Shown: piece after piece, positions 14,973 through 30,409 of the stretch
Layout: every line of letters begins with the position of its first letter
Numbering within the stretch: position 1 is the stretch's first letter
DNA from: Streptomyces sp. NRRL WC-3618
Lineage (GTDB): Bacteria > Actinomycetota > Actinomycetes > Streptomycetales > Streptomycetaceae
Length of the DNA stretch: 30,479 nt
Direction: 5' to 3'
Assembly: GCF_001280005.1 (NCBI RefSeq)
Contig: NZ_LGDW01000066.1
Coordinates: 1-30,479, forward strand
The notes under the pieces: model-generated
Database searches by the model: none
The model's input: the letters and a program-made list of their open reading frames with translations, nothing else
What the model was told of the DNA's origin: nothing
Translations under genes and position numbers: made by a program

Positions 14973-15396
14973 GTCTGTTCCTCCAGAACATGTACGCCCC
15001 GGCTCCGTGCCGGACCGTACGAAGTACGTGTGATGCGCGTGATGCGTGAACTACCGCTGATTCAAGGCAGTTGGCCACCGCCTGGATGTTGTTTCACCGG
15101 TGTTGTTTCGCCGCCGTGCACTGCGTCGCAAGATCAGAATTGCCCACCGAATCCCCGGCGAACCACCCCGGAACCGATCATTCCCCCTGAAGCGTGATGA
15201 CAAGTCGATAAACCCCCTTCACATCACTGAAGTCGCAGTTCAGGCTGATAGGGGAGATTTCCGCCAGGCCGCCACGGCGTTACACAAGGGGCGCAAGGGA
15301 CGAAGCGTTCCCGCACATTTCCAGCCATTCCGCCAAAACGACGTCGACGACCCGTGCACCCTTCCCTTTTTCGAACGTGAGTACGAATATAGAAAC
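14973..15396. other. Intergenic region between divergent genes, no gene seen
   Basis: 424 bases separating the secreted-protein gene from the primase-polymerase gene. It should hold both promoters. The last 25 bases before the ATG at 15397 are AT-rich (TACGAATATAGAAAC) with no ribosome site, which suggests a -10 element and a leaderless or very short leader. The sequence GAAGTACGTG occurs at 15021-15030 and again at 14567-14576, flanking the secreted-protein gene. Confidence 0.5.
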
Positions 15397-16275
15397 ATGG
15401 CCACCACAGACCGGCAGGCCACGACGCTGGCCCTCGCCCACGCCCTGTCAGCCGCCGAACGCGGCCTGGCCGTCCTCCCCCTGTCCGGGACGAAACTCCC
15501 GGCCCTGCGCTCCCCCCACCGCGACGACCCGACCTCCGTCCCGGCCTCCGCCCCGTGCCACGGCGAGTGCGGAGGCATGGGTCACGGCGTGTACGACGCC
15601 TCGACCGACCCGTCCCGCATCCGCGAACTCTTCGCCGCCGCGCCCTGGGCCACCGGCTACGGCATCGCCTGCGGCCTGCCCCCGCACCACCTCATCGGCA
15701 TCGACCTGGACACCAAGACGGGCACCGACTCCTCGGCGGCCCTGCGTGAACTGGCCCTGCGTCACCTCTTCACGATCCCCGAGACGGTCGTCGTCCTGAC
15801 CCCGTCCGGCGGCCGCCACCTCTGGCTAACGGGCCCCCCGGACGCCGTGGTCCCCAACTCGGCGAGCAGGCTGGCCCCAGGCATCGACATCAGAGGAGCC
15901 GGCGGCTACCTCGTCGGCCCCGGCTCCCGCACCGAACACGGCGTCTACGCCACGGCCCCCGGCACGGCCCACCTGACCCCGGCGCCGTGCCCACCGCCCC
16001 TCCTGCGCCTCCTCCTGCCCCCGCCCCGCACCCACCGCTCCGCGCTCCCCGCGCCGGCCGAACACGGGCAGGGCCTGATCCACTTCGTCCTCGCGGCCCA
16101 TGAGGGCCAACGCAACACCCGCCTCTTCTGGGCAGCCTGCCGCGCCCACGAGAACGGCCTCGGCTCCGCCCTGACCGACCCCTTGGTGGAAGCGGCCGTC
16201 CAGACGGGCCTGACGGAGCGGGAGGCGCGGGCGACTGTGGCTTCGGCGGCGCGGATGACGGGGTGGCGGGGGTGA
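15397..16275 (+). CDS. Bifunctional DNA primase/polymerase (Prim-Pol) domain protein
   Basis: A 292-residue Prim-Pol (AEP superfamily) protein. The N-terminal alpha segment (ALSAAERGLAVLPLSGTKLP) is typical of the family. The catalytic GIDLDTKTG (Asp-x-Asp metal site, about residues 109-111), the GGRHLWL His motif (about 145-151) and DIRGAGGYLVGPGS (about 172-185) follow in the right order. The C-terminal third lacks a helicase or ATPase domain, so this is a standalone primase-polymerase that might make primers or fill gaps. An HGECGG cluster near residues 50-60 may bind metal. Such genes occur on actinomycete mobile elements and also as lone chromosomal genes. The GC content matches the core here. 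The start is the ATG in AGAAACATGG. Confidence 0.85.
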   Translation: MATTDRQATTLALAHALSAAERGLAVLPLSGTKLPALRSPHRDDPTSVPASAPCHGECGGMGHGVYDASTDPSRIRELFAAAPWATGYGIACGLPPHHLIGIDLDTKTGTDSSAALRELALRHLFTIPETVVVLTPSGGRHLWLTGPPDAVVPNSASRLAPGIDIRGAGGYLVGPGSRTEHGVYATAPGTAHLTPAPCPPPLLRLLLPPPRTHRSALPAPAEHGQGLIHFVLAAHEGQRNTRLFWAACRAHENGLGSALTDPLVEAAVQTGLTEREARATVASAARMTGWRG

Positions 16276-16377
16276 GGTGACGCATGCGCACTTATCGGGT
16301 TACTGAGGTGCGACTTTGTCAAACAAGGCCAAAAGGCGCCCTATGAGGACCATGTACCGGGCACTCACACTCGCGAC

Positions 16378-16929
16378 ATGGGGGTTCTCCGCGATGCCGA
16401 CCGACTTGAGTGCTTGTTGTGCTCCGCGAAGGGGCCCGACGTTCGCGAGCGCGGACGGATCGTGCCTCTGTCGGCCGAACTCTGCGACGGCTGCTGGAAC
16501 AAGGTGGCCAATGATCTCGCCATGCGCGAGGGAGCCACGGCAGCACCACAGCTGGACCCCGACCCGGACGACACGGAGTGGATCGAGCCCCGCAGCTGCC
16601 GGCGCTGCCGTGCCACGGTGCGCTGCTACCCGACGAACTACGACCGCTGGGTAGAGCTGGCCACGTTCGAACTGCCGGCGAAGAAGGTCCCTCCACAGCA
16701 CCGTTGGCGACTGATGCGCCCGACGGCAGCCAACACCCCGATCGCGGTGGCGACCGTAGCCATCAGGATCGGCGCCATCGACCCGACACCCGGCGAACCC
16801 GTCATCCCGGCTCACGAGTTCGTATGCTGCGCCAGGGCACCTGAGGGGCCCAGCAGCCAGACAAACGGAACGGCCCCCAACCTGAACACCAGGTCAGAGG
16901 CCGTTCACCGCGGTGGGTGTGGGATTTGA
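16378..16929 (+). CDS. Cys-rich zinc-ribbon-like protein (possibly DUF6083)
   Basis: The frame gives up to 183 residues. Paired cysteines CLLC (about 12-15), CDGC (about 36-39), CRRC (about 74-77) and CC (about 149) suggest two zinc-binding knuckles. The second carries CYPTNYDRWVELATFELPAKKV, a pattern seen in a Streptomyces family that I recall as DUF6083; that name is from memory. The function is unknown. The last 25-30 residues are read from the tRNA-Ser terminator and its 3' end on the opposite strand, with the stop at 16927-16929 inside the tRNA. The conserved part ends near the CC pair, so the natural stop may have been lost. Confidence 0.6.
   Translation: MGVLRDADRLECLLCSAKGPDVRERGRIVPLSAELCDGCWNKVANDLAMREGATAAPQLDPDPDDTEWIEPRSCRRCRATVRCYPTNYDRWVELATFELPAKKVPPQHRWRLMRPTAANTPIAVATVAIRIGAIDPTPGEPVIPAHEFVCCARAPEGPSSQTNGTAPNLNTRSEAVHRGGCGI
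16868..16906 (-). terminator. tRNA-Ser(TGA) terminator
   Basis: Outer stem GAACGGCC/GGCCGTTC (16868-16875, 16899-16906) encloses an inner ACCTG/CAGGT stem. It begins five bases past the tRNA 3' end on the reverse strand. Confidence 0.65.
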
Positions 16930-16997
16930 ACCCACGGTGACATCGCTGCCACGACGGTTTTCAAGACCGTTCCCTTAGGCCGCTCGGGCAACCCACC
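16911..16997 (-). tRNA. tRNA-Ser (anticodon TGA)
   Basis: An 87-base type II tRNA on the reverse strand. It has acceptor stem GGTGGGT/ACCCACC, discriminator G, D arm GCCCGAGCGGCCTAAGGG, anticodon stem ACGGT/ACCGT around loop CTTGAAA (anticodon TGA, reading UCN codons), a long variable arm and T arm GTGGG-TTCAAAT-CCCAC. Its 3' end faces left, so an element using this tRNA would lie left of 16911. I saw no duplicated 3' end there. It marks the last clearly core-like feature before the AT-richer island. Confidence 0.97.
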
Positions 16998-17312
16998 CGT
17001 GCCCGGGTGGAGCGGGTACTGCGTTCCGGGCGTGGGTGCTGCTCAGGGGGCGTGGTCCAGACCGGGTCCACTGGATCGGTTCCACTCCCCAGAGCTGCCA
17101 CTGAACGGAGGTGTCGGCGCCGCGAGGGTTCCTCAGCCGTTCTCCTCAGCTCCGCCAACACCGGCCTAATGCGCTCCTCGACAGCAACCGCAGACAGCAA
17201 CCGAGAGCTTGATCCGTCAAGCATTGACATAGTGCCCGTATCTACTGAGTTACCACTATCTCTACGGGCTCAAGGCGGCTCGCTCCGCTCTCACGCGCAG
17301 GCTCCCACTTGA
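16998..17312. other. Intergenic region right of tRNA-Ser, no convincing gene
   Basis: 315 bases holding the tRNA promoter region. A reverse frame starting near 17230 is open into the tRNA, but its codon use is not Streptomyces-like and its tail reads tRNA sequence, so I do not call it. GCCCGTA and TACGGGC (about 17234-17269) form an inverted repeat around a 22-base loop. GC content falls across this stretch toward the island. Confidence 0.4.
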
Positions 17313-17513
17313 GGCCAAAGAAGGGGTAAGTCGCGGCCGGACGGCCGGCTACACGGCTTTGAGCAGTCACTTAGCGGGAGTCTCGAAGATCACGGCCCGA
17401 ACATCGCGCTTTACCGGGCAGGCCAACAGGCTGCCCGAAGCCGGTCTACCAGCCTTATATGTCAGGACACTGATCTATTAGAACTGAGGTTCCCGTTACT
17501 AGTCGGACTAAAG

Positions 17514-17582
17514 ATGCCAAAGCCACCAAAGAAGAGAAACGGGTTGTCTGGGGCTACGGAGAGCCTCCATCATGAAGCATGA
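17514..17582 (+). CDS. Small Lys-rich leader ORF coupled to the OLD-type gene
   Basis: A 22-codon ORF starting MPKPPKKRNGLSG, whose stop TGA overlaps the start of the next gene in an ATGA junction (17579-17582). No strong ribosome site precedes the ATG. The frame is open upstream for a further 67 codons to a TGA at 17310 with no ATG, GTG or TTG. This could therefore be the tail of a broken or alternatively started gene (residues such as EDHGPNIALYRAGQQAARSR) rather than a leader. The overlap suggests that translation of this frame feeds the downstream gene. Confidence 0.4.
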   Translation: MPKPPKKRNGLSGATESLHHEA

Positions 17583-19480
17583 AGATGATCCGCGCGCGGA
17601 TTGAGAATTTCCGCTGCCTTCAGTTGACTGAAGTGAAATTCGATGACGTAACTTCCATCATCGGCCCCAATGGAGTGGGAAAATCGACCATCCTGCGCGC
17701 TCTCGACTGGTTTTTTAACGGTGAAAAAGGAACCTCACTAAGCACAGAGGACCTCTGTATCGACGCACGAGGCAGTCGAATTCGTGTCGAAGTCGAGTTC
17801 GGATCTCTCACTGCGCACGACCGAGAAGAACTAGGTCATTACGCGCCCGAAGGGGTGGACAGTGTGGTCATTTGGCGCACATGGGATAACGGCGAAGACA
17901 AGATCACGGGAAAGGGGATGACCTTCCCACCTTTTGAAGTCATTCGCAGCCAACCAAACGCCACCGCCAAGCGCCGTTCCTACAATTCACTCCGCGACGA
18001 GCGGCCCGAGCTAGAGCTACCATCGGCAGGTAGCGAAGCGCTGGTGGACGAGGCAGTGATTATTTGGGAAAGAAACCATGCCGATCAGCTCGTAGAGTCC
18101 GACATTCAAGCCACGAACTTCTTCGGATTCGCCGGTAAAGGGAAACTAGCGAGCCTATTTGAATTCATCCTGGTCAGCGCTGACTTGCGTGCACTTGAGG
18201 AGTCAAATGACACACGATCCGCTATCTTTGGGCGAATTATCGAGCGCGCCGTAGACAGAAAGGTAGCTGACGCGGAGCTGGCAGATCTCGACGCTCGATT
18301 GAATATGGAACGAGCGCGCATTGCAACCAAAAATTTTGCGCCCCAACTGGAGCTCATCTCGAAAGAACTCACCAAAGCGGTAGAGGTCTTTGCAGCAGGT
18401 AGGAACGTGTCGGTTTCACCCGTCGATAACCCCTACAAGCCAGTCAAGGCGTCCTTCAAGGTAAGCATTATCGATGGCCCAGTTGAAACTAGCGTCGAGC
18501 GCCAGGGACATGGATTTCAACGCGCAATGATTATCGCCGCACTAAAACTTCTTTCGGACCGTGGCGGTGATGGACCACGCTCCAAAGCAGTTTGCTTGGC
18601 TATCGAAGAGCCTGAGCTCTACCAGCATCCCGTCCAGGCACGCGCTTTCTCTCAAGTTCTAAGGAAAATCGCGGAAGATCCGAACCAAACGGCTCAAGTG
18701 GCCTACGCCACCCACAATCCAATCTTCGTAGACCCGCATCACTTTCACGAAATTCGGCGAATCAGTCGAGTTCAGGATGGAGCCAACAAAAGAGTCATCT
18801 CCATTGCCCACGTACAGGTCGAGGACGTGATTGAAAAGTTGTCAGGATTCGTATCCGAAGAAATGGTGCGAAAGCAGATCGGAGCGGCGATTCTACATCG
18901 GCTGGCCGAAGCACTCTTTGCCTCTGCCGTTGTATTGGTAGAGGGGCATACTGACGCAGCTGTTCTTGAAGGATCTGCTACACGTGATGGCTCACCTTTG
19001 GCTGTGGAGGGGATCCACGTTGCTGAAGCCGGTCACAAGACCGCCATCTATCTAAGCCACGCCATCCTGACCCTGCTCGGGATTCCGTGCTTCGCTGTAT
19101 TTGATGCTGACGCCGGTGTCGGAATTAGGATGGAACAGAACGGTAGAAAGCAAAGTGATATCCGCAATGCAGAGCTGAATGAGCGTGCGGAAAATCGTCG
19201 GCTTTTCATGTACCTTGGGCAACATGCCGTTTCTGATTTGCCTCATACTCACGCGGAGAGCGACTATGCCGTCTTTGCAGACCGCCTAGAGGAGACGCTA
19301 AAGGATGAGTGGCCGGAGTGGGGGCAGAAAGTAGAGGAACTAATCCAGTCCGGACTGGGATACAGCGAGAAAAACTCCTACACCTACGCGAGAGCAGCTT
19401 TCGAAGCAGACGGGGAGCCCCCGACCGTTATTAAGCAGATCGTTCAAAACGCAAAGGCCTTGGCCAGGCAGGGGCAGTAA
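17579..19480 (+). CDS. OLD-family ATP-dependent endonuclease (ABC ATPase + Toprim)
   Basis: A 633-residue protein with an N-terminal ABC/SMC-type ATPase. It has Walker A GPNGVGKST (residues 29-37), a central helical insert, a signature-like QGHGFQRAMIIAA, Walker B LAIEEPE (Glu343-344) and the H-switch ATHNP. A C-terminal Toprim nuclease domain follows, with VLVEGHTD (Glu455), a GHKTAI turn and the FDADAG Asp pair (509 and 511). This order defines OLD nucleases such as phage P2 Old and the Gabija protein GajA, which cut DNA in phage defence. No UvrD/GajB helicase or reverse transcriptase follows; the partner is a KTSC-domain gene. Codon use is far more AT-rich than the flanks, which indicates transfer. 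A weak ribosome site suggests coupling to the leader frame. Confidence 0.87.
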   Translation: MKMIRARIENFRCLQLTEVKFDDVTSIIGPNGVGKSTILRALDWFFNGEKGTSLSTEDLCIDARGSRIRVEVEFGSLTAHDREELGHYAPEGVDSVVIWRTWDNGEDKITGKGMTFPPFEVIRSQPNATAKRRSYNSLRDERPELELPSAGSEALVDEAVIIWERNHADQLVESDIQATNFFGFAGKGKLASLFEFILVSADLRALEESNDTRSAIFGRIIERAVDRKVADAELADLDARLNMERARIATKNFAPQLELISKELTKAVEVFAAGRNVSVSPVDNPYKPVKASFKVSIIDGPVETSVERQGHGFQRAMIIAALKLLSDRGGDGPRSKAVCLAIEEPELYQHPVQARAFSQVLRKIAEDPNQTAQVAYATHNPIFVDPHHFHEIRRISRVQDGANKRVISIAHVQVEDVIEKLSGFVSEEMVRKQIGAAILHRLAEALFASAVVLVEGHTDAAVLEGSATRDGSPLAVEGIHVAEAGHKTAIYLSHAILTLLGIPCFAVFDADAGVGIRMEQNGRKQSDIRNAELNERAENRRLFMYLGQHAVSDLPHTHAESDYAVFADRLEETLKDEWPEWGQKVEELIQSGLGYSEKNSYTYARAAFEADGEPPTVIKQIVQNAKALARQGQ

Positions 19481-19689
19481 TGGAAAGATCTTCGGTCGTC
19501 TCATCCAATATCATTTCCATCGGTTACGATCCGTTGGAAATGATGCTAGAAATTGAGTTCCAGTCTGGCGTTTACAGATACTTCTCAGTGCCAGAAGGTG
19601 TGTACAGCGCTCTCATGGATGCACCCAGCCATGGCCGCTACTTCTCTCAAGCAATTAAGGACAAATTTTCCTTTTCCCGAATCGGCTGA
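19480..19689 (+). CDS. KTSC-domain small protein
   Basis: A 69-residue protein that is almost entirely one KTSC domain. It has SSNIISIGYDPLEMMLEIEF, then SGVYRYFSVPEGVYSALMDA, then PSHGRYFSQAIKDKFSFSRI, with the usual tyrosines and the G-R-Y-F segment. KTSC domains are found alone and fused to lysyl-tRNA synthetase and other proteins; their biochemical role is unclear. Its ATG overlaps the OLD stop by one base (TAATG), so the two are translated together. Co-occurrence in the transferred island suggests that it works with the nuclease, for example as an adaptor, inhibitor or target sensor, but no sequence evidence fixes this. Confidence 0.85.
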   Translation: MERSSVVSSNIISIGYDPLEMMLEIEFQSGVYRYFSVPEGVYSALMDAPSHGRYFSQAIKDKFSFSRIG

Positions 19690-19752
19690 AGGATATCTGG
19701 AGAGTTCGCGCGCGAGAGTCGCGAGTGCACTCTCTAGATGACAGAAAATGCA

Positions 19753-19784
19753 AATACCCCGCATGCGATTGCGTGCGGGGTATT
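19753..19784. terminator. Bidirectional hairpin terminator
   Basis: AATACCCCGCA (19753-19763) and TGCGGGGTATT (19774-19784) form a perfect 11-base stem between the end of the KTSC gene and the end of the convergent small peptide gene. It probably serves both. Confidence 0.85.
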
Positions 19785-19795
19785 AGTTCGTCAGC

Positions 19796-19885
19796 TCAGG
19801 TAAGGAGTGCGCCGGCAACACTGTTCGTGGCGATCGCTTCGGTCACTTGCACACCTGCGATCAATATCATCTTGAATTTACTCAT
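19796..19885 (-). CDS. 29-residue hydrophobic peptide
   Basis: A short ORF from the ATG at 19885, preceded by an excellent AAGGAG seven bases upstream. The peptide starts MSKFKMILIAGVQVTEAIAT and ends NSVAGALLT. It has a basic N-terminus and a hydrophobic core, about the size of type I toxins or signal-peptide-like pheromone precursors. The frame is open upstream to about 20083 and would add a membrane segment (PVALILALVLVAVGLNYGIQ) plus a charged stretch. The gene may instead be a single-pass protein of about 80 residues starting at an ATG near 20044. The strong internal ribosome site favours the short form. It is convergent with the OLD/KTSC pair and shares its terminator. The family is unknown. 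Confidence 0.45.
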   Translation of the reverse strand: MSKFKMILIAGVQVTEAIATNSVAGALLT

Positions 19886-20305
19886 GATGAACTCCTTTCG
19901 TTCGTAATTGGCATCGGACTCCGGCTTGTTTCTTTTCAGGAACTGGATTCCGTAATTCAGACCAACTGCGACCAAAACGAGCGCCAAAATCAATGCTACG
20001 GGAGTTGAACCCGCCCCACATACCCCTGACCTCAACTGACGACCCATCAAAGATAGCACGAACACACGCAGTAGGGGCCTCAACGGCCGATAACCAGTCC
20101 ACCAGACCCCGATGGCCTCCCAGCCGAGACTAGGGACAAGTGCGCGCCAGAGCCGTGCCAGATCGTGCGGGGAACCATGGGGAACGGCGGGGAGTGGTCA
20201 CGTGTGCGACCAGGGCTTCACCACCACTCCACCGCAGTTCAGGGCAGCAATCGCTCTGAGAAGACTCAAGCTTCCCAAGCTAAGGGCGGTTGCGGTGGGC
20301 GCCCA
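19886..20305. other. Island right edge and intergenic region
   Basis: 420 bases between the small peptide start and the end of the ATPase fusion gene. Composition shifts from AT-rich to GC-rich at about 20050-20110, probably marking the right end of the OLD island. Apart from the possible N-terminal extension of the peptide ORF I see no gene. Confidence 0.5.
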
Positions 20306-21757
20306 TCAGTCCGGCATGATGACCTGGACATGCCCGAGCGAGGCCAGCGTCATACTGTGTGTCGCGATGACAAACTGACACCCATCTTCCACACGAGCAT
20401 TCATCCAGGAGACGAGTTCCTCGGTGAGCGATCGGGGAAGTCCAGCCTCCGGCTCATCCAGCAGATACAGCACACCAGGCTTGGGGCTCATCTCTGCCAA
20501 GCCAATACGGAATGATTCCGTCGCACTGAGGTGCGGGATGCGTCTCTCCTTGAGGCTTGGGTAGGAGGCGTACCACACGTCCTGTGGCCTTGGGCGATGA
20601 TGAAAGGTGATCTCCAGGACGCCGGCCAACCGTCGGCTGAGTGGCCGGTAGTCGAAGGCTCTTCGGGCCCTTTCCCCCTGCAAGGCGTGCGAGAGAGACT
20701 CAAGGACCACGCTCTTGCCCGCTCCGTTAGGACCGGCCAGAACGGTGATTCCCGGCCCGATGGTGATGCCCTGACGCAGTAGTCCAATCATGGGAACAGT
20801 CAGCACACGCTCGCTTCCTGGATCCATGACAACGTCAGTCAGGTCTTTCGGTAGGAAGCGCTCAGGCGTAAGACGTTCTACATCCAAGCGCACCGCCCGC
20901 AAAAAGCCACCACCGGTGTAGTCAGGGTCAGGCTCAACAATCTCGCTAGTGAAGCTGTCCAAAGCCGCAGCAGGGAGGCCTAGTTCACGCGTGGTCTGAC
21001 ACAAGTCTTGGTCGAGTTCACGCAGGGTCGTCTCGATTGCATCGGAGAGGCCCAAGCCGGTGTTGCCAGCCGGCGTCGTCTCCCCGCCTTCAGGGCGGCC
21101 GAGGACCTTGGCGAAGTGCGCCAGCCGTCGTGTCCACTCCTCAAGCAAGTGCGTCGTCTGCTCATCAGCTACCGCCCGTGCCGTCTCCTGAGGTTCTGGA
21201 CGTTGCAGCCGTAAGGGGGATACAGATCCTTCGTGGAGCCCACCCTGTCCTCGATTCGCTCGCAGTGCAGCGATGTGGGTACGCATCTGTTGGCAGGTCA
21301 CGACTAGTGCCCACGCCATATTCTGATCTTCTGCCCGGAGGTTCGCCAGGCGATGATGAACTTCTCGCATCTCCTGGGACAGATCCAGAATTTCACGCAT
21401 GGTGGCGACAACATCCGTGTTCCGACCGGAGGCCCCACGTTCGCTGCTCGCAAGGGCCCTCTCCCACAGAGGACGTGCAGCCGCAAGCAGTTGCTGGTGC
21501 TCCTTTGCACTCGGGGTGATCACGTCTGCGACAGCTTCGACAAAGTCCCAGGTGATGCCCACTCCAGCGAGCCTCATATAAGTAGCGGTACGTCCAGGCG
21601 GTGACGCGCCGGCGAAGTGCTCTGGCGTGAAGCGGCTGATCACCGTGCTGACTGTCACTCCACGGTCATCAAGCCACCGGCGTAGCAGACGGGCAATCTG
21701 ATTCTCCTCCTCGGTTCCCTGCGGTGGTCGCCACTGTGGACGAGCTCCCCTTCCCAT
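20306..21757 (-). CDS. HTH-ABC ATPase fusion protein
   Basis: A 483-residue protein. Residues about 15-100 look like an XRE-type helix-turn-helix region (QIARLLRRWLDDRGVTVSTV, RLAGVGITWDFVEAVADVIT), as in Streptomyces regulators. A helical middle part (110-270) is followed by an ABC/RecF-like ATPase. This has Walker A AGPNGAGKSVV (342-349), Walker B YLLDEPEAGL (Asp434-Glu435) and His467 in the ATHS switch. The ATPase half is short and lacks a long coiled-coil insert. No nuclease domain is visible. Such ATPases occur in defence and mobile-element genes, so a DNA-sensing or regulatory ATPase is plausible. The ATG at 21757 has GAGGAG ten bases upstream. The ACTTGTCTAAGT dyad just before it may be an autoregulatory site. 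Confidence 0.75.
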   Translation of the reverse strand: MGRGARPQWRPPQGTEEENQIARLLRRWLDDRGVTVSTVISRFTPEHFAGASPPGRTATYMRLAGVGITWDFVEAVADVITPSAKEHQQLLAAARPLWERALASSERGASGRNTDVVATMREILDLSQEMREVHHRLANLRAEDQNMAWALVVTCQQMRTHIAALRANRGQGGLHEGSVSPLRLQRPEPQETARAVADEQTTHLLEEWTRRLAHFAKVLGRPEGGETTPAGNTGLGLSDAIETTLRELDQDLCQTTRELGLPAAALDSFTSEIVEPDPDYTGGGFLRAVRLDVERLTPERFLPKDLTDVVMDPGSERVLTVPMIGLLRQGITIGPGITVLAGPNGAGKSVVLESLSHALQGERARRAFDYRPLSRRLAGVLEITFHHRPRPQDVWYASYPSLKERRIPHLSATESFRIGLAEMSPKPGVLYLLDEPEAGLPRSLTEELVSWMNARVEDGCQFVIATHSMTLASLGHVQVIMPD

Positions 21758-21779
21758 GACCGCGTTGCTCCTCTCATGA

Positions 21780-21791
21780 ACTTGTCTAAGT
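21780..21791. promoter_or_regulatory. Dyad upstream of the HTH-ATPase gene
   Basis: ACTTGTCTAAGT (ACTT-N4-AAGT) lies 22 bases upstream of the start. It is a candidate operator for the protein's own helix-turn-helix domain. Confidence 0.3.
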
Positions 21792-21919
21792 CATGGTGCC
21801 GTGTAGGTGCGCCGTCCGGAGCCGTCCGGCGAACGTCGTGGACGGCTGGCCCTCGTCAGTTATGTCGCGCCACTGTTGTCGGCGCCGCAGTCACCTGAAC
21901 ACGCGGCAAGTAGAGCTGT

Positions 21920-21944
21920 AAGAGCTCCGGGCCTCGGAGCTCTT
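21920..21944. terminator. Perfect hairpin upstream of the small membrane gene
   Basis: AAGAGCTCCG pairs perfectly with CGGAGCTCTT around the loop GGCCT. It ends 22 bases before the ATG at 21967. It could insulate that gene from upstream transcription, or be a leader hairpin. Confidence 0.5.
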
Positions 21945-21966
21945 CACATTCGATCGAAGGACGTAC

Positions 21967-22209
21967 ATGTCTCAGCCGCACACCCACACGGAACATCACC
22001 AACCGCCAACGACGAACGTCTCAGCTACCGTGCCGCCTCTGCTCGCCCTGACGTTCGTCTTGCTCCTCCTCGTCATCGGCGGCGGGCTTGTATACGTGAC
22101 TCTCACGCATCCGGCCGTTGCCGTACCTCTGACCGTGGCCACTGCAGGCGTCGCACTCGTGGTGACCATCGCAAGCGCCCTCCTCGCTCTGGTCGCGCCG
22201 CGACGGTGA
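21967..22209 (+). CDS. Small two-segment membrane protein
   Basis: An 80-residue protein. A His/Thr/Pro-rich soluble N-terminus (HTHTEHHQPPTTNVSA) is followed by two hydrophobic helices (about 23-46 and 50-75) and a short basic tail (APRR). GAAGGA lies six bases before the ATG. I do not recognise the family. Small membrane proteins of this kind are common on actinomycete conjugative elements, some as spread (Spd) proteins, but this cannot be assigned. It precedes the Nudix gene on the same strand by 129 bases. Confidence 0.7.
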   Translation: MSQPHTHTEHHQPPTTNVSATVPPLLALTFVLLLLVIGGGLVYVTLTHPAVAVPLTVATAGVALVVTIASALLALVAPRR

Positions 22210-22338
22210 GACCAGGCCGCAGGGCTTCCGTCTGGTTCACACGAGAATCTCTCGTCAAGGTGACGCAAAGGGAGCCGAACGCGCGCACCCTCCAGATCGG
22301 TCTGAGATCCTGGAGTCCGATCGAGAGGGGCCGCAGGT

Positions 22339-22872
22339 ATGGAGTGGAAAACCCACGGTGAGCGACAGATCTACACGAACAAGTGGGTGAACCTGTGTCT
22401 GGTCGACGTCCAGCAGCCTGACGGGGCCAGGTGGGAGTACCACGTCGTTCGCCTCCGGCACCTGGCAGTGGCCGCCGTGGTCAACGACCGCCAGGAGGTG
22501 CTGATGATGTGGCGGCACCGCTTCATCACCGACTCCTGGGCCTGGGAGTTGCCCATGGGCCTGGTCGAGGAAGGCGAGTCCCCGGAAGAGGCGGCGGCCC
22601 GCGAAGTCCTGGAGGAAACGGGCTGGCGCCCCGGTCCCATCAAGCCCCTGATCTACGCCGAGCCGGCCAACGGGATCACCGACTCGCAGCACCACGTCTT
22701 CCGCGCGGACGGCGCCACGTACGACGGTCCGCCCACGGAGAAGAACGAGTCCGACCGCATCGAGTGGATCCCCCTCAGTGAGGTGCGCGGGATGATCGAC
22801 CGCCGCGAGATCGTGAGCAGCGGATCCCTCGTCGGCCTCTTGTACGTGCTCATGGACGAAGCGATCCGCTGA
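22339..22872 (+). CDS. Nudix hydrolase (Pif-like candidate)
   Basis: A 177-residue Nudix protein. The Nudix box is complete: Gly74-x5-Glu80-x7-Arg88-Glu89-x2-Glu92-Glu93-x-Gly95-Trp96 (GLVEEGESPEEAAAREVLEE, then TGW), so the Mg-dependent diphosphohydrolase site is intact. The overall layout resembles ADP-ribose pyrophosphatase-type members. In the actinomycete element pSAM2 the Nudix protein Pif blocks redundant transfer between element-bearing cells. A Nudix gene beside KorSA-, Tra- and SpdB-like genes is a good candidate for the same role, although a housekeeping substrate is possible. It ends 23 bases inside the convergent XRE-TPR gene. Confidence 0.85.
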   Translation: MEWKTHGERQIYTNKWVNLCLVDVQQPDGARWEYHVVRLRHLAVAAVVNDRQEVLMMWRHRFITDSWAWELPMGLVEEGESPEEAAAREVLEETGWRPGPIKPLIYAEPANGITDSQHHVFRADGATYDGPPTEKNESDRIEWIPLSEVRGMIDRREIVSSGSLVGLLYVLMDEAIR

Positions 22873-24190
22873 CCGGTGGGAGGAGTTCCCGTAGCCGTGC
22901 CTCGAAAGCCAAGGCTACGGGCTCCCGCCTGTGCGGAGCCAACTGCTCGTAGAACTCCCGGAGATGGCCCGACACCCGCTCGGAGGACACCGCCGACGCG
23001 GGCTCCAGAGCTTGCGTGGCGGTGTGACAAGCCTGGGCAAGCTTGCCCTGGTCCAGCTGCGTACGGGCCAGCCAGAACGTGTGGAACGCCCGGCCGCGTT
23101 GGTTGGTGCTGTTCTCCCGCCGCAGAGCATCCGCGATCAAGGGTTCCGCAGTCGCGGCCTCCCCGAGTCGGCCGTGAGCAATGCCGGTGTCGACTATGAG
23201 CTTCAGCTCGTCGAAGTAGGTCACCCATGACGGGTCGGGGTCATTCGCCTGGATCTGCTCGAAGTGGCGATGCGCTTCGCCGATCGCTCGGTGAGTGGAG
23301 TCCCGGTTGCCGAGGGCGGCATGGGCGAAGGCCTCGCGCATGGACAGCATCGACATGACGCGCGGCGTCGTGCCGAGAGCTGGGCGGGCCTGGTCCTGAG
23401 CGGCGGTCACGAGCGCCAGGGAGTCCCCGGGCTTGTCCTGGTACGTGGCCTGCAAGCTCATGCAGGCCAGGACGTTGGCCATGAACTGGCGGTCGTCGAT
23501 CTCCCTGGCCAGTTGCAGGGCCTCGGTGAAGTACGCGCGGGCCTGGTTGTACTGGCGGGCGTCGAAGTAGGTCCAGCCGGTGAGTCGCGCCAACTCGGCC
23601 GCGATTCCGTACAGGCCGTTCTGGATCGACGGTGGTCGGCTCTCCTTCAACAGTCCCACAACATGCCGGAGCTGACCGACGATGGCCGGCCTCAGAGCTT
23701 CGCCGCCGTGCTGGTCGTCCCGTCGCCAGTAGTCCTCGATGGACGATCGGAACGCGGCAAGTGTGGCGGTGCTGAGGCTCGTTCGTGTGGCCAACGCCAG
23801 GATGCTGTCTACATCCGGCCCCGGCAGAGACGCGGGTGTCTGCGGCTCTGGCTCCGGCACTTGCGGTGCCTCTCGCTGGGTGACCACGAGAGCCTGGGGC
23901 GTCTCCCAGGGGCGTCGGGCAAGCCCGAGCATGTGCCCTGGGATGCGCAAGCCGTCCGCGATGCGTTCGACGACGTCCATGTGCAGCAACTGACGTCGCC
24001 CGGCGATCACTTCACCGACTCGGCTGGGCGTCAGCTCGCATCGCCTGGCGATCATCGACGGATAGATGCCCGCCCGTACCTTCACCAGCCGGAAGACTCT
24101 GCCGAAGTCCCGTACCCGGCACGCGTTGATCATCTCGGGATCGGTGAGCAGCCTGGCAGGCAGTTCCTGCGGCCGGTCGGCGTCGGGCAT
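22850..24190 (-). CDS. XRE-TPR transcriptional regulator
   Basis: A 446-residue regulator. Residues about 28-85 hold a helix-turn-helix (FRLVKVRAGIYPSMIARRCE, LTPSRVGEVIAGRRQLLHMD). A Pro/Glu-rich linker follows and then tetratricopeptide-like helical repeats, clearest around ARLTGWTYFDARQYNQARAY, FTEALQLAREIDD and FHTFWLARTQLDQGKLAQAC. This architecture is shared with actinomycete element regulators and with RRNPP-type peptide-sensing regulators of Firmicutes. Whether it binds a peptide is unknown. The ATG at 24190 (MPDADRPQ) has GGGAG about ten bases upstream. The longer frame to 24259 would start within the operator. A perfect palindrome lies upstream, and a small gene diverges from it. 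Confidence 0.85.
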   Translation of the reverse strand: MPDADRPQELPARLLTDPEMINACRVRDFGRVFRLVKVRAGIYPSMIARRCELTPSRVGEVIAGRRQLLHMDVVERIADGLRIPGHMLGLARRPWETPQALVVTQREAPQVPEPEPQTPASLPGPDVDSILALATRTSLSTATLAAFRSSIEDYWRRDDQHGGEALRPAIVGQLRHVVGLLKESRPPSIQNGLYGIAAELARLTGWTYFDARQYNQARAYFTEALQLAREIDDRQFMANVLACMSLQATYQDKPGDSLALVTAAQDQARPALGTTPRVMSMLSMREAFAHAALGNRDSTHRAIGEAHRHFEQIQANDPDPSWVTYFDELKLIVDTGIAHGRLGEAATAEPLIADALRRENSTNQRGRAFHTFWLARTQLDQGKLAQACHTATQALEPASAVSSERVSGHLREFYEQLAPHRREPVALAFEARLRELLPPVSGSLRP

Positions 24191-24251
24191 CGGGCAAGCT
24201 CCCACCCTGCGAGGGCTACGCAACGTCGCTGATTCTCTACTTGCCGCGATG

Positions 24252-24268
24252 TTACCCAAGTTGGGTAA
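24252..24268. promoter_or_regulatory. Perfect palindromic operator between XRE-TPR and the divergent small gene
   Basis: TTACCCAAGTTGGGTAA is a perfect 8-base inverted repeat around a single G. It lies 62 bases upstream of the XRE-TPR start and 49 bases upstream of the divergent ATG at 24317, the right place to control both. The local dip in GC fits a promoter. Confidence 0.75.
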
Positions 24269-24316
24269 TCAGCCTGACCTTTTGGCGGGGGCACCCGGTT
24301 CGCGATGCTCGTGTGC

Positions 24317-24547
24317 ATGGCGAGCAATCAGCAGACCAGACCAGGTGTCGGTGAACTGGCCAAGGACAGCGTCAGGGACCGTATCGGTGTCGTCATGGGC
24401 GAGTTCGGCGGCCGTGTGCAGATGCGGCCGGTCCGTGGCGGCCTGGAGTGGGATGCCGTATCGGACAACGTGGTGGCGCTCAGTGCGCGGGAGGAACTGA
24501 GCGCACGTCTGGCCATCAAAAACGGCAACAGTCTGGGTGGGTTGTGA
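24317..24547 (+). CDS. Small conserved actinobacterial protein
   Basis: A 76-residue protein beginning MASNQQTRPGVGELAKDSVR. It continues with a compact beta-rich region, DRIGVVMGEFGGRVQMRPVR then GGLEWDAVSDNVVALS. I recognise this as a recurrent small Streptomyces protein that often sits beside XRE-TPR regulators; its function is unknown to me. The G-x-x-M-R-P...GG-x-E-W-D pattern resembles a small SH3-like barrel. No ribosome site is visible before the ATG, so it may be translated from a leaderless message. It is divergent from the XRE-TPR gene across the palindromic operator. Confidence 0.7.
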   Translation: MASNQQTRPGVGELAKDSVRDRIGVVMGEFGGRVQMRPVRGGLEWDAVSDNVVALSAREELSARLAIKNGNSLGGL

Positions 24548-24795
24548 TGCGCGCCATCGGCCGAGACACCGGAGCAATTTTTCATCATCTGCATCAGTGG
24601 TTCGTGCGGCCTGGTGATCGGCAATGCCTCGATATCAACCAGCAGACCGGCCGCCCCGGACGGGTGCCATTCACGGCTCCCCCGTCCCCGTTCGGGGCGG
24701 CCTCCAGAACTGCTTTCCCGATCGCCTGCGCACCCAGCCCGGCGATCAGGGCGGCACGCACGTGCCACGCACCACCTCACACCGGGAGATTGCAC

Positions 24796-25239
24796 ATGAC
24801 GGCAACGGCGAACGATCAGAGGTCCGGCCGCGCGGTGGCTGGTGAGGAATTGTTCGAGAGCCTCGCCCACTTCGTGGTCATCCACAACGGGCAGTCGGCC
24901 GAGCGTGCGGAGCGGATCGCGGACCAGGCGGTCGCGTTCCTGGTCACGGCGGCCACTGCCACCGTTCCCATGGTCCCGTCCGATGACGTGGACTTCGGCC
25001 TCCACGCGCTCATCCTGCACACGAAGGAGTACGCCGCGCTGTGCGAGCGGTACGCGGGCCGCTTCCTGCACCACAACCCCCAGCCGGGTGGAGGCGCCCG
25101 CGACCCTGAGATGGTCGCCGCCTCCGCACGCGCCATGAAGGCGGCCGGGTTCATGGTCTTCGACGACCTGTGGACCGTGAACGGCGTGAATCTCGCGCAG
25201 TGCGATTCGGACTGCGGCCGACCGTACGGTCGGGCCTAG
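24796..25239 (+). CDS. GRDP-like (His/Cys motif) protein of unknown function
   Basis: A 147-residue protein. The core reads FESLAHFVVIHNGQSAERAE, later DVDFGLHALILHTKEYAALC followed by ERYAGRFLHHNPQ. This H-x-L-I-L-x-T-x-x-Y-x-x-x-C-x-x-x-x-G-R-x-x-H-H pattern resembles the glycine-rich-domain-protein-like fold and suggests a metal site made of His and Cys. The C-terminus has a second Cys pair (CDSDC). The frame is open from 24448, but GGGAG nine bases before the ATG at 24796 marks the likely start. The 248 bases upstream (24548-24795) hold no clear gene. It is followed by the kinase-like gene on the same strand. Confidence 0.65.
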   Translation: MTATANDQRSGRAVAGEELFESLAHFVVIHNGQSAERAERIADQAVAFLVTAATATVPMVPSDDVDFGLHALILHTKEYAALCERYAGRFLHHNPQPGGGARDPEMVAASARAMKAAGFMVFDDLWTVNGVNLAQCDSDCGRPYGRA

Positions 25240-25257
25240 CCACACGACAACTGCGAC

Positions 25258-25287: not shown

Positions 25288-25317
25288 GCTCGCCTGGAAC
25301 CTGGAAGGGATGAGACG

Positions 25318-26154: not shown

Positions 26155-26209
26155 TCCCGAAAGCCCTGTTCACCTCGCGTCAGCAAGCGCGTGGACGCCG
26201 ACAACAAAA

Positions 26210-26871: not shown

Positions 26872-27099
26872 ATGAGCGAGCACATACCGGACAACGAAAT
26901 GGGGTCGACCAGCATTCAGGTTGGGGACACGGATCAAGTAGTCGCGCTGGTCGAGGAGATGTGGGCCATGGTCGTTCGCCTCAGTAGGGAAATCAGGGAG
27001 TTGCGAGAGGAAGTGGCCCAGCTCAGTACTACGGCTTCGGCTGCTGAGCTGCCTTCAGTTCCTCTACCTCGCGCCGCAGTTCTTGATGATCAGCGCTGA
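26872..27099 (+). CDS. Small coiled-coil protein
   Basis: A 75-residue protein with GGGGAGC five bases before the ATG. The middle part (VEEMWAMVVRLSREIRELRE, then EVAQLS) has the heptad pattern of a short coiled coil, preceded by an acidic and polar N-terminus. The last third overlaps the 3' end of the convergent GntR gene by 71 bases on the other strand. The function is unknown. The C-terminus of the GntR protein is also a coiled-coil-like helix, so an interaction is conceivable but not shown. Confidence 0.5.
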   Translation: MSEHIPDNEMGSTSIQVGDTDQVVALVEEMWAMVVRLSREIRELREEVAQLSTTASAAELPSVPLPRAAVLDDQR

Positions 27100-27520
27100 G
27101 AACACGGATCTCGTCACGTAGTGCGGTGAGTACTTCGACAAGGGTGGTCCCGGCGACTGCGGCAGCTTCGGTGTCGTCGGGCCCGCCCTCCCCCTGCTCG
27201 GCCTGGCCGTGCTCCTCGCCCCTGTTCGCCAAGTACCAAGCCGGAGCGGTGTAGTCCGCCGAGAACTCCCCGCCGGCATTGTGGTCTGCGACGAAGCTGC
27301 CCCGACCATGGATCGTGTAGATCAGGCCCTCGTCCCGCAACACATTGAGCGCGGACCTCGCGGTCATGTTGGCTACGCCGAAGCGTTCCTGTAGCTCGCG
27401 GATGGATGGCATCTGCTCGCCCGGCTTGATCCGCCCTTGCAAGATGTCGCGCCGAATCTCGTCGGCGGCGTGCTGATATGGCGGCCGACGGTCCTGCTTG
27501 CTCTCTGGCGCGGGGCTCAT
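27029..27520 (-). CDS. GntR-family regulator (KorSA-like)
   Basis: A 163-residue repressor. The N-terminal winged helix is GntR-type (YQHAADEIRRDILQGRIKPG, then EQMPSIRELQERFGVANMTA and the wing GRGSFVADHN). The effector domain is short and ends in a charged coiled-coil helix (RDEIRVLSADHQELRREVEE). Small GntR proteins facing the transfer genes of pSAM2-type elements (KorSA) repress the pra/tra promoters, and the place and size here match. The ATG at 27520 (MSPAPESKQ) is chosen over an upstream in-frame start at 27568, which lies within the operator dyad. It is divergent from the transfer operon. Confidence 0.87.
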   Translation of the reverse strand: MSPAPESKQDRRPPYQHAADEIRRDILQGRIKPGEQMPSIRELQERFGVANMTARSALNVLRDEGLIYTIHGRGSFVADHNAGGEFSADYTAPAWYLANRGEEHGQAEQGEGGPDDTEAAAVAGTTLVEVLTALRDEIRVLSADHQELRREVEELKAAQQPKP

Positions 27521-27561
27521 GGCCCAAGAGTAGCGACTCTTAGCACCCCTAGCACACCCCA

Positions 27562-27638
27562 CTGACATAGGTGGCCTACGTCAGTTGACACCTAGCTCAC
27601 CCGATTCACTTGACACTGCTAGGTCTGCTATGTTCAAT
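27562..27638. promoter_or_regulatory. Divergent promoter/operator region of the transfer operon
   Basis: CTGACATAGG-TGG-CCTACGTCAG (27562-27584) is a 10-base inverted repeat with one mismatch. It is followed by two TTGACAC copies (27585-27591 and 27610-27616), each followed by a CTAG-containing half site. The TTGACA hexamers suit -35 boxes reading toward the transfer genes. The dyad is the likely site of the KorSA-like repressor. Confidence 0.6.
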
Positions 27639-27691
27639 GGAGAGCACGCCCCGCCACCCCGGTGGAGCGCAATCGAGAGGAACCAACTCCC

Positions 27692-28042
27692 ATGGCACGC
27701 ATCCGTGTTGGCCTGCTCCCCACCTCTTCGTTCATGGTCGGCACCCTGCCGGTGCCGAAGTACGCGGACCAGGAGAAGACCCAGTTCGCCACCGACCGTG
27801 AGACCGGCGCGAAGCTCTACACGATCACCCTCTTCTTCATGGAGGAGGACCGCGCCGAGGCTCTGAAGATCACCGTTCCGGAAACCGGTCTGCCCAACGG
27901 GCTCCGGCCGGGTGTCCCGGTCATGCCGGTGGAACTGTTCGCCACTCCGTGGGCGCGCATCTTCAACGGCTCGCTCTCGGACGGCATCGCCTACCGCGCG
28001 GGCCGACTGGACCTGGTGGCCCCGGCCGCTGAGGCGGCGTGA
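27692..28042 (+). CDS. Conserved actinomycete conjugative-element protein
   Basis: A 116-residue protein starting MARIRVGLLPTSSFMVGTLP, with a compact mixed alpha/beta make-up (KLYTITLFFMEEDRAEALKI, RIFNGSLSDGIAYRAGRLDL). I recognise it as the protein that commonly opens the tra operon of Streptomyces integrative elements; its function is not known to me. GAGAGGAA lies 12 bases upstream of the ATG; a GTG at 27662 is an alternative start. It is first after the regulatory region, and its stop overlaps the next start by four bases (GTGA). Confidence 0.75.
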   Translation: MARIRVGLLPTSSFMVGTLPVPKYADQEKTQFATDRETGAKLYTITLFFMEEDRAEALKITVPETGLPNGLRPGVPVMPVELFATPWARIFNGSLSDGIAYRAGRLDLVAPAAEAA

Positions 28043-28251
28043 GCGGCACTGCCTTCCGGTCCGGCGCTGAGCGCAGCTACCCGCTGCCTCACGCCGGGCC
28101 GGGTGCCCAGTTCACCGAATCACTCGTGACCTCGGTGGCGGCCCTGCTCGTCGCCTACGGCTACCCCCGCCTCGACGCGTCGGCGGATCGGGCGGCCCTC
28201 GAATCGGCCCTAACGGCCTTCCTCTACACCCCGTTGGAGAGTCAGAGATGA
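28039..28251 (+). CDS. Small conserved element protein
   Basis: A 70-residue soluble protein with a GTG start overlapping the upstream stop (GTGA) and a stop overlapping the Tra start (ATGA). It has the helical segment FTESLVTSVAALLVAYGYPR followed by SADRAALESALTAFLY. The family is unknown to me. The tight coupling on both sides says it is made in step with Tra. Confidence 0.7.
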   Translation: MSGTAFRSGAERSYPLPHAGPGAQFTESLVTSVAALLVAYGYPRLDASADRAALESALTAFLYTPLESQR

Positions 28252-29663
28252 AGGATCCGAACGCCCCGGCGCAAGGGATCTTCGGTCAAGTCCCGCTCGT
28301 CGTCGCCCTGGTGCTCGCCGTGCTCGTCGGATGGGCGGTCTGGTGGGTAGTCCGCTACGTTCGCGCCGACGCCATGACTCGGCAGTCCATACGGCAGGCC
28401 ATACGCGTGCGGTGGGGCTGGAAGCGGCTCGCACCGATGCTCAAGCTGTCGGCCACGGACAAGACCCCGACCGCCCTGGCGTCACTGGCGAACACGAACG
28501 GCAAGCCCATCAAGCCGCGTGTCCTCATCCCCGCCCTGAAGGTGAAGCACGACGCGTACGGAGTGATCGCGCGGGCCCAGTGCCTGCCTGGCGTTGGGCT
28601 TACGCAATTCCAGAAGGCGGCCCCGCACCTCGCGGACGCCTGGCGCTGCACCCGGGTGGCGGTCACCCAGGACAAGCCTGGGGAGATCCTCGTCCGGGGT
28701 GTGCGACTTGATCCGCTGAAGTTCCCCACGGAGCACCACCCCACGGGTGAGGCACCAGAGGAAACAGCACAGTGGGATCTGGGCCTCGACGAGTACGCGC
28801 AACCCGTGTCCGTGAACCTCACGCAGGTACCCGGCGTGACCGTGGCCGGCCTTCCCGGTTTCGGCAAGACCAGCCTGATCAACCGGCTTCTCGCCGACTG
28901 GGCGCCCTCGCCCGCAGTGCAGTTCGCCTGCGCGGACGGCAAGGTGTCGGCTGCGTACGAAGGTGACTACGCCGACTGGGTCCAGCGCATGTTCGCCTTC
29001 GTGGGCGATGACCTGGAAGAGGCCAACAAGCTGTTCCGGCAGCTCGTTGAACTGCGCCGCGCCCGGTCGGCATCGGTGCGCCAGATGCTCGGGGTGAAGT
29101 CCATGTGGGAGGTCGGTCCTTCCGAGAACTGGCCCCTGGTCGTACTGATCGTCGACGAAGCGCACACCTACTTCCGCGACCACAAGGGAAGCGACCAACA
29201 GACAAAGAAGCTGGCCGCGCTCGCCGCCGAGAACGCCCGGCTCGTGGAAGACCTGGTGAAGAAGGGGCGGTCCGTGGGACTGCTCGTCATCCTCACCACC
29301 CAGAAGTCCACCGGTGACGCGATACCCACCTTCATCCGCGACGTGTGCCCCGTGGGCCTGAGCTTCGCCCAGAAGACCGCCGAAGCCGCCGTGGCCGCGC
29401 TCGGCGACGAGATCCGGGAATGGCCGGACGCCAACCCGATCAACCTCCAAGACCCCACCTACGTCGGCGTCGCATCGATGAACCACCAGTCGCAACCCGG
29501 CTTCATCCGCATCCGTACGCCCTACGTACCCGACGCGGAAGCGGCTCACATCGCCGAACAGACGGCGAACCTCACCGCCGACCCGGGCGCCCTCCTGGAA
29601 GCCTTCCTCGGCCTCCGCCTGGCGGACGTGGACCTCTCAAAGGTCGACGCCGCAACAGCCTGA
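28248..29663 (+). CDS. FtsK/SpoIIIE-type DNA translocase (Tra, conjugal transfer)
   Basis: A 471-residue TraSA/TraB-type protein. One N-terminal membrane segment (about residues 15-36, VPLVVALVLAVLVGWAVWWV) leads to a cytoplasmic motor domain. This has Walker A AGLPGFGKTSL (201-208 core), Walker B VLIVDEAH (Asp303-Glu304) and the sensor-like LTTQKSTGDAIPTFIRD. In actinomycete elements this single hexameric motor moves double-stranded DNA between mycelia after recognising short repeats at clt; no clt cluster is evident in the window. The length is typical of the smaller AICE Tra proteins. It is translated in overlap with the gene before it and probably controlled by the GntR repressor. Confidence 0.92.
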   Translation: MKDPNAPAQGIFGQVPLVVALVLAVLVGWAVWWVVRYVRADAMTRQSIRQAIRVRWGWKRLAPMLKLSATDKTPTALASLANTNGKPIKPRVLIPALKVKHDAYGVIARAQCLPGVGLTQFQKAAPHLADAWRCTRVAVTQDKPGEILVRGVRLDPLKFPTEHHPTGEAPEETAQWDLGLDEYAQPVSVNLTQVPGVTVAGLPGFGKTSLINRLLADWAPSPAVQFACADGKVSAAYEGDYADWVQRMFAFVGDDLEEANKLFRQLVELRRARSASVRQMLGVKSMWEVGPSENWPLVVLIVDEAHTYFRDHKGSDQQTKKLAALAAENARLVEDLVKKGRSVGLLVILTTQKSTGDAIPTFIRDVCPVGLSFAQKTAEAAVAALGDEIREWPDANPINLQDPTYVGVASMNHQSQPGFIRIRTPYVPDAEAAHIAEQTANLTADPGALLEAFLGLRLADVDLSKVDAATA

Positions 29664-29710
29664 CCTACGCCCTCACGTTCCCAACACCCTCGGAGAGGAG
29701 GTGAACTCCC

Positions 29711-30409
29711 ATGACAGAGGACCGGATCACTCAGCGCACGATCACCGCAGTCATGATCGTCATTGCCGCGCTGGCGTTCGTCTTCTCCTTCGGCAACGTC
29801 TGGTCCCTCGCCCTGCGCCTCGGCGTCCCCGGCCCGATCGCACCGCTCATCGCTCCGATGGTGGACCTCTCCGTGGTCGGCCTTCTGGTCGCCCTGCGCT
29901 ATCTCTCCCTGCGCGGCCTGCCCGCCGAACAGATGACGGCCGCCAACCGACTCATGCACTTCTCCGGACTGCTGACCCTGGCCCTCAACGTCGCGGAACC
30001 GATCGTCGCCGGACACTACGGCCGCGCTGCCGTTGACGCGGTGGCCCCGCTGCTCCTCCTCGGCTGGGGTGCCGTTGGCCCGCAGCTCCTCCGCGCCTTC
30101 CACACCGTCGCGCGCCCCGCCGTACCGGCTTCCCTGCCGGACGAGATCGAGTCGGAGCCTGAGACGGCTTCTGACGTATCCAACTCTGCGGTGCCTCTCA
30201 CCGTTCCGGCCCCGGCCCCGGTCGCTCCTCACGTGGCCCCGGCTCCTGCCTCGCCTGCGGTCAAGGTGCCTGAGCCGCTGTTGACCGAAGCACGCTCCAT
30301 CGCCACGTCCCACCACACCGAGCACGGCGAACCGATCACGGCGGCCCAGCTCAAGACGCGACTCGGAATCGGCCTGCCCATGGCCACCGCGCTGCACGCC
30401 GCTCTGTAG
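29711..30409 (+). CDS. SpdB-like DUF2637 membrane protein
   Basis: A 232-residue protein with a perfect AGGAGGTGA ribosome site six bases before the ATG. Four hydrophobic segments occupy about residues 10-120 (TAVMIVIAALAFVFSFGNVW, IAPLIAPMVDLSVVGLLVAL, then two more), the DUF2637 pattern. A Pro/Ala-rich linker follows and then a C-terminal helix-turn-helix-like segment (LTEARSIATSHHTEHGEPIT, AAQLKTRLGIGLPMATALHA). SpdB proteins of Streptomyces plasmids and elements help spread transferred DNA through the mycelium. It lies 47 bases after tra. Confidence 0.85.
   Translation: MTEDRITQRTITAVMIVIAALAFVFSFGNVWSLALRLGVPGPIAPLIAPMVDLSVVGLLVALRYLSLRGLPAEQMTAANRLMHFSGLLTLALNVAEPIVAGHYGRAAVDAVAPLLLLGWGAVGPQLLRAFHTVARPAVPASLPDEIESEPETASDVSNSAVPLTVPAPAPVAPHVAPAPASPAVKVPEPLLTEARSIATSHHTEHGEPITAAQLKTRLGIGLPMATALHAAL

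Follow-up and report, generated by a model that had tools for sequence, protein, structure and literature searches.

An OLD-family nuclease gene coupled to a KTSC-domain gene in Streptomyces sp. NRRL WC-3618, a candidate mobile defence unit

Introduction

What would an ATP-dependent nuclease of the OLD family do with a dedicated partner of only 69 amino acids? This question is raised by a 30,479-nucleotide stretch of Streptomyces sp. NRRL WC-3618 (contig NZ_LGDW01000066.1, positions 1 to 30,479; hereafter the window), in which an OLD gene overlaps a gene for a KTSC-domain protein. An earlier note on this DNA, made from its letters alone, had read the pair as a defence system, by its own account an inference. 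Our analysis leads us to consider it moderately probable that OLD and KTSC form a mobile two-gene module against phages (or plasmids), in which OLD is the effector and KTSC binds to it as an adaptor or licensing subunit. No description of the pairing was found in the openly licensed literature searched, although one may exist elsewhere; an openly licensed paper that names both KTSC and the OLD family carries the latter in its reference list only.

Results and discussion

The OLD gene (17579..19480, plus strand, 633 amino acids) was assigned from its reading frame, which is open throughout and intact, from Pfam and PADLOC matches, and from aligned residues. Pfam places AAA_15 on residues 1-384 (E 1.3e-36) and OLD-like_TOPRIM on residues 446-511 (E 6.6e-14), both above the curated cut-offs, so that an N-terminal ABC ATPase and a C-terminal Toprim domain are joined in a single protein, as expected of the OLD family. 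The genome has this single OLD-like_TOPRIM match. The top PADLOC model is Old (E 1.2e-45), with AriA and then GajA next; among the best 25 of 137 models, AriA (E 4.4e-41) covers the ATPase part, while the Toprim part is matched by the Pfam family.

The protein carries a Walker A motif (GPNGVGKST, K35), an EEPE motif (E343-E344), an H-loop histidine (H379) and the Toprim residues E455, D459, D509 and D511. In an alignment of 15 OLD sequences, K35, E343, E344, H379, E455, D509 and D511 are invariant, and thus both the Walker A lysine and the Toprim metal A residues of the family are present. The closest solved structure is that of the Thermus scotoductus OLD protein, TsOLD (6p74; E 4.3e-25 with the single sequence, E 9.2e-37 with a profile). 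E455, D509 and D511 align on its metal A residues E377, D431 and D433, and D459, which is not invariant among the 15 sequences, aligns on the metal B residue D381. The metal B residues S478 and E480 of TsOLD fall outside the aligned stretch, and the invariant D568, E571 and K598 of the window protein are candidates only for the remaining metal B positions. An AlphaFold model of moderate confidence (mean predicted local distance difference test score 76.6) retrieved 6p74 first in Foldseek (E 4.8e-19), followed by GajA of Gabija.

The KTSC gene (19480..19689, plus strand, 69 amino acids) begins within the OLD stop codon, the junction reading TAATG. Its frame is open, its product matches PF13619 with E 6.5e-22 and 77.5 bits against a cut-off of 25, and the protein has the KTSC fold. 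It is the sole KTSC gene of its genome, and KTSC genes are present in only 10 of 392 Streptomyces genomes; a housekeeping role was rejected on these grounds.

Is the pair kept as a unit? The close OLDs whose gene context was inspected come from five distinct Streptomyces loci, namely the window, L002, L003, L125 and L123 (L and G numbers are our handles for loci and genomes; L004 was counted as L125 and L153 as L123). Their OLD proteins are 82-87% identical, and in 5/5 loci KTSC lies directly downstream with overlapping stop and start codons. Three kinds of surroundings are found among the five. The window, L002 and L003 have parts of one element in common; L125 and L123 have only an upstream repeat and OLD-KTSC in common, and homology between these two does not extend past the KTSC stop. 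The L002 unit is flanked by 50-bp direct repeats of a tRNA-Arg 3' end, and that of L123 by 43-bp repeats resembling a tRNA 3' end, where no complete tRNA was called. An OLD protein of at least 82% identity occurs in 3/392 Streptomyces genomes, the window's included, with KTSC directly downstream in all three. Both genes are under purifying selection where this is measurable, the ratio of nonsynonymous to synonymous substitution rates (dN/dS) being 0.04-0.06 for OLD (4/10 pairs) and 0.07-0.14 for KTSC (3/10 pairs), while silent sites are saturated in the remaining pairs.

Beyond this clade, KTSC was found next to OLD proteins of a different kind. In L124, which lies close to one end of a large contig of genome G313, KTSC stands ahead of a 618-aa OLD, the Streptomyces plasmid loci L140, L141 and L142 have the same arrangement, and on a plasmid of Haloferax alexandrinus (L139) KTSC precedes a 628-aa OLD; the gap is 51-52 nt in both the plasmid type and Haloferax. 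By BLASTP, the window OLD and that of L124 have little in common beyond the ATP-binding region, and the window's OLD is much more similar to OLDs that have no KTSC partner. A quick maximum-likelihood tree of 31 OLDs requires three changes of the paired state, and constraining the ten paired rows to a single clade lowered the log-likelihood by 391 (approximately unbiased test, p-AU 0.0002), whereby a single paired clade was rejected. Such change counts do not distinguish gain from loss, and because of long branches, L139 and L289 most of all, three changes are less certain than two. The reversed gene order, OLD first in the window lineage and KTSC first in the others, favours separate gains.

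Adjacency was also compared with chance. In 4/20 KTSC-bearing actinobacterial genomes an OLD Toprim match lies within 3 kb of KTSC, against 0.012 cases expected, in an estimate that includes the window, which prompted the question. The four cases represent two lineages, three of them forming one close lineage with the window among them, and the probability of two or more is 7e-5. The search covered 20 of 21 KTSC-positive genomes; G158, which was below the cut-off, was left out. The earlier note had taken the translational coupling as an argument for joint function, and had named adjacency no more frequent than chance and a pair confined to one lineage as results that would refute its idea. The overlap is kept in all five loci, and neither refuting result was obtained, in view of the excess over expectation and of two distant OLD lineages, one of them haloarchaeal, that do not join the window's in one clade.

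The upstream repeat, which we call the anchor, places the unit in a wider context. In the window it spans 17244..17441 on the plus strand, in two blocks (17244-17298 and 17339-17441). It is read as non-coding because no single open frame runs through the upstream segment across the five loci, for which reason an upstream coding gene coupled to OLD was rejected. The anchor likewise precedes the unit in L123 and L125, was not found in L002 or L003, and recurs in 67/199 Streptomyces genomes at E 1e-12. Two further copies in the window's own genome are neighboured by genes for a Schlafen/AlbA_2 protein (L246) and an AIPR protein (L247). Both belong to a first set of 13 anchor loci, in which the side corresponding to OLD also carried a SacI-type methylase and endonuclease (L237), an Mrr-type protein with PDC-M36A matches (L238) and an NB-ARC/TPR protein (L244); of the other eight, the six scanned, all except L241 and L242, were without a defence call (unknown, kinase, AAA, ice-binding, mannitol dehydrogenase).

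A further 35 anchor loci (L249-L283) were taken in order of E-value, leaving out anchors already seen or too near a contig end. The G+C content (GC) over 2 kb on the OLD side was at most 0.60 at 27/35 of them, with a median of 0.553 (34 loci) versus 0.672 on the other side (34 loci; Mann-Whitney p 1.2e-10). The first one or two genes per side were then scanned, giving 58 cargo-side and 68 other-side proteins. The cargo side yielded, among the best 25 of 104 PADLOC families, Septu PtuA (E 2.5e-181) and PtuB (4.1e-86) and a dGTPase (7.2e-94), and, among the best 25 of 74 Pfam families, NACHT in four proteins, AAA_21, HNH and SLFN_AlbA_2 in two each, and HD-CE, SLATT_2 and GmrSD_N in one each, besides transposases (DDE), a sigma factor, an oxidoreductase, repeat proteins and many genes without a family assignment. 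On the other side PADLOC matched PDC-S07 in eight proteins (the Nudix ones), SspH in four and mad8 in one, none better than E 1e-21, and the Pfam families were mainly HATPase, Nudix, GntR/UTRA, FtsK, RepSA and integrase cores. The PADLOC model counts of 104 on the cargo side versus 3 overstate this contrast, since the models are redundant and one PtuA matches many PtuA models; it is therefore the kinds of genes that show it. Taken together, GC and gene kinds show that the OLD-KTSC unit occupies a slot for exchangeable, defence-rich cargo, and the anchor could be used to locate further cargo genes in elements of Streptomyces.

A unit that travels on conjugative or tRNA-integrated elements might instead serve the maintenance or transfer of its element, or DNA repair, and a passage of PMC12796447 describes an archaeal OLD, Cran1, as acting in the cell cycle and not in defence. 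We regard this as improbable in view of the patchy spread of the close OLD in Streptomyces (the three genomes above) and of the defence-type genes in the cargo that the anchor precedes elsewhere.

Support for a defence module also comes from the other partners of KTSC. In the solved anti-phage SIR2-HerA complex (8wld) KTSC is the C-terminal domain of HerA, and in the SIR2-HerA loci L133 and L148-L150 a KTSC gene directly follows HerA. The cargo slot and this occurrence of KTSC within an anti-phage complex lend support to the defence reading of the earlier note, which we likewise state as an interpretation. In Thiomonas (L071, 5890-12743), a SIR2-HerA-KTSC operon lies within 1.4 kb downstream of an OLD relative, an arrangement in which an OLD could have captured KTSC. 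On a haloarchaeal plasmid (L144, 1181-4213), E2/UBC, ThiF and KTSC genes stand in a row, the last two overlapping, and a ThiF gene is listed under the KTSC match in two more records (H6, H8). In Streptomyces genome G372, where no OLD Toprim match was found, a KTSC gene lies 43 nt after that of a 324-aa protein without a Pfam match (L121, 6731-7961). A passage of PMC9503650 mentions, as unpublished, HerA coupled with a DNA-binding KTSC gene and an endoDNase; OLD does not occur in that passage.

How the two proteins might work together can be sketched as follows. OLD would be the effector, its ABC-type ATPase controlling the Toprim nuclease, and KTSC a small dedicated subunit whose synthesis is tied to that of OLD through the stop-start coupling. 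KTSC would bind the ATPase-nuclease and act as an adaptor or licensing factor for recognition of the trigger or of the nucleic-acid substrate, much as may be the case for KTSC fused to, or encoded after, HerA. Once infection is sensed, OLD would cut nucleic acid, either phage DNA or host tRNA as reported for P2 Old, and this cleavage would stop the phage or the cell. The physical complex, its trigger and substrate, the adaptor role and protection against phages are parts of the scheme that we infer. Published accounts of KTSC function conflict in the passages concerned: the domain is called DNA-binding in PMC9503650, RNA-binding of a lysyl-tRNA synthetase type in PMC7824862, and of unknown function, perhaps RNA-binding, in PMC8541194. 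That KTSC might guide OLD to tRNA is an idea drawn from these conflicting accounts and from the tRNA substrate described for a relative.

The main rival assigns KTSC the opposite task, namely an antitoxin-like restraint that holds a self-toxic OLD in check and releases it on infection. Antitoxin genes often stand ahead of toxin genes, and KTSC is small, coupled and, in the other lineages, ahead of OLD; in the window lineage, however, it is the second gene. Class 1 OLDs can be toxic, P2 Old killing recBC cells according to a passage of PMC10568477, and toxicity of YbjD is reported in a passage of PMC13261556. On the other hand, OLD relatives mostly exist without KTSC, and where KTSC follows or is fused to HerA in SIR2-HerA systems an antitoxin role is not indicated. 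We hold restraint to be unlikely, though worth keeping in mind.

Several observations weigh against the adaptor module that we favour. Among 80 OLD loci of named genomes, KTSC is adjacent in only 3 (L002, L003, L004), all of the close clade, and in none of the 77 at 41-48% identity; L071 has KTSC 4.5 kb away, and KTSC could be missed in L037, L075 and L081, whose sequence runs no further than 260 nt past the OLD stop, and in L040, which starts 181 nt ahead of the OLD start. No KTSC match was found anywhere in 16/16 Streptomyces genomes (among the 392) with an OLD at 44-49% identity, nor on 8/11 Streptomyces plasmids with the second OLD type. As OLDs outside the close clade mostly lack it, the KTSC partner is optional for the family at large. 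The changes on the tree could also fit a single old union followed by losses. In L139 (1-4213) KTSC has NurA and HerA-like genes 1.4 kb upstream of it, beyond an opposite-strand gene, and might belong to that pair instead of OLD; several KTSC-linked effectors meet in this one place. In two locus sets, 12/18 and 6/14 KTSC genes have no recognised defence neighbour, and by profile searches 71/73 KTSC loci of viral contigs (L153-L225) are without OLD or SIR2-HerA within 4 kb; a lone KTSC gene in a phage could serve as a decoy or play some other part. The window's KTSC protein is mildly acidic (net charge -2, isoelectric point 5.1, with other KTSC ranging from -6 to +8), which does not favour binding of nucleic acid, and its dN/dS range indicates a protein that is maintained but changes faster than OLD. 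In E. coli, moreover, the Toprim domain of YbjD/OldB is dispensable for the phage phenotype according to a passage of PMC13261556.

The mostly unpaired relatives and the faster divergence of KTSC would also suit an OLD that acts alone, with KTSC as a chance passenger kept in a few mobile lineages. Against such a passenger stand purifying selection on KTSC where measurable, an overlap kept in every distinct locus, homology that ends at the KTSC stop in two loci with different surroundings, pairing in separate clades and adjacency far above expectation, and we therefore give it little credence.

A broader view, which we offer tentatively, is that OLD-KTSC might form a separate OLD class found in bacteria and archaea, and that KTSC might be a transferable module for recognition or licensing, joined time and again to unrelated ATPase-driven defence effectors. 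By the same tentative count these effectors would comprise SIR2-HerA, OLD in at least two and perhaps three lineages, and the haloarchaeal ThiF/E2 operons. Were this true, the lone phage KTSC genes could be decoys. An orphan domain would gain a testable context common to unrelated defence effectors, and OLD with its 69-aa partner, together with the distant examples, can be tested as a two-gene construct.

Genomic setting of the pair

Most of the earlier note's description of the locus stands. It had reported an intact ABC-ATPase/Toprim gene overlapping a KTSC gene through TAATG, as found above, within an AT-richer island. In 1-kb windows the GC is 0.528-0.534 over 17501-19500 and 0.515 at 19001-20000, versus 0.645-0.724 over 15001-17500 and 0.61-0.69 over 20001-30000. 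The island was placed between a tRNA gene and a conjugative element, which agrees with tRNA-Ser(tga) at the left edge (16910..16997, minus strand), shortly past which similarity to the tRNA region of relatives stops, and with the genes at 27029..30409 to the right, comprising a GntR regulator (27029-27568, minus strand), an FtsK/SpoIIIE-like protein (28248-29663, plus strand) and a DUF2637 protein (29711-30409, plus strand). We take this set to mark an actinomycete integrative and conjugative element, inside which the window would end. Two details need amending. The start given for the unit, 17313, is too early for the genes, as OLD begins at 17579; the DNA common with the most distant pairs begins near 17561-17568, and the anchor is a separate repeat upstream. 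A terminator shared by both genes is plausible: an 11-pair hairpin (19756..19781, -22.3 kcal/mol by folding) follows KTSC, but it has no T run and was not called by a terminator scan requiring one.

Further features were noted nearby. An AAA_21-type ATPase with a long N-terminal part (20306-21757, minus strand), convergent to the pair, is weakly similar to MAD3 and AriA models. The segment 19774-20061 and its counterparts in L002 (8157-8443) and L003 (2352-2656), from three genomes, are 88-90% identical and so better conserved than the DNA of OLD (about 78%); it contains a small minus-strand reading frame convergent to KTSC. A degenerate second copy of a tRNA-Arg 3' end (2620-2708 and 3346-3420), about 640 bases from the intact tRNA-Arg gene, resembles an integration scar; a tRNA-Arg with the same anticodon borders the pair-carrying element in L002.

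Comparison with known systems

In SIR2-HerA systems with KTSC, the domain is C-terminal on the ATPase (8wld) or encoded directly after HerA, and the ATPase HerA is combined with the effector SIR2, whereas the window unit has OLD; neither SIR2 nor HerA is among the six neighbouring proteins scanned between 15346 and 26154. Gabija (GajAB, class 2) likewise joins an OLD protein, whose GajA models and structures were matched here, to a dedicated partner, which is a UvrD-like helicase there and a 69-aa KTSC protein in the window; no UvrD helicase was found among the six neighbours. Retron Eco8 (class 3) and PARIS (AriA/AriB) are also OLD-type ATPase/Toprim effectors with partners. Eco8 has an adjacent reverse transcriptase and noncoding RNA, whereas none of the six neighbours is a reverse transcriptase (noncoding RNA was not searched for). 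PARIS combines AriA with a separate or fused AriB nuclease; the window protein, with ATPase and Toprim in one chain, matches AriA models over its ATPase part and OLD-like_TOPRIM over its Toprim part.

Closest in architecture are the class 1 OLDs (P2 Old, TsOLD, E. coli YbjD/OldB), which have the domain order and catalytic motifs of the window protein, its invariant K598 lying outside the stretch aligned with 6p74. Their substrates are described differently, TsOLD cutting DNA in a passage of PMC7049728 and P2 Old being said in one of PMC13261556, citing others, to cut host tRNA upon sensing RecBC inhibition. In its passages on classification, the OLD review (PMC10568477) defines class 1 by single genes, class 2 by a helicase and class 3 by a retron, and poses the number of OLD classes as a question. 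Against these definitions, the OLD gene of this unit is not a single isolated gene, since the KTSC start overlaps its stop in all five loci, and the OLD-KTSC unit fits none of the three classes.

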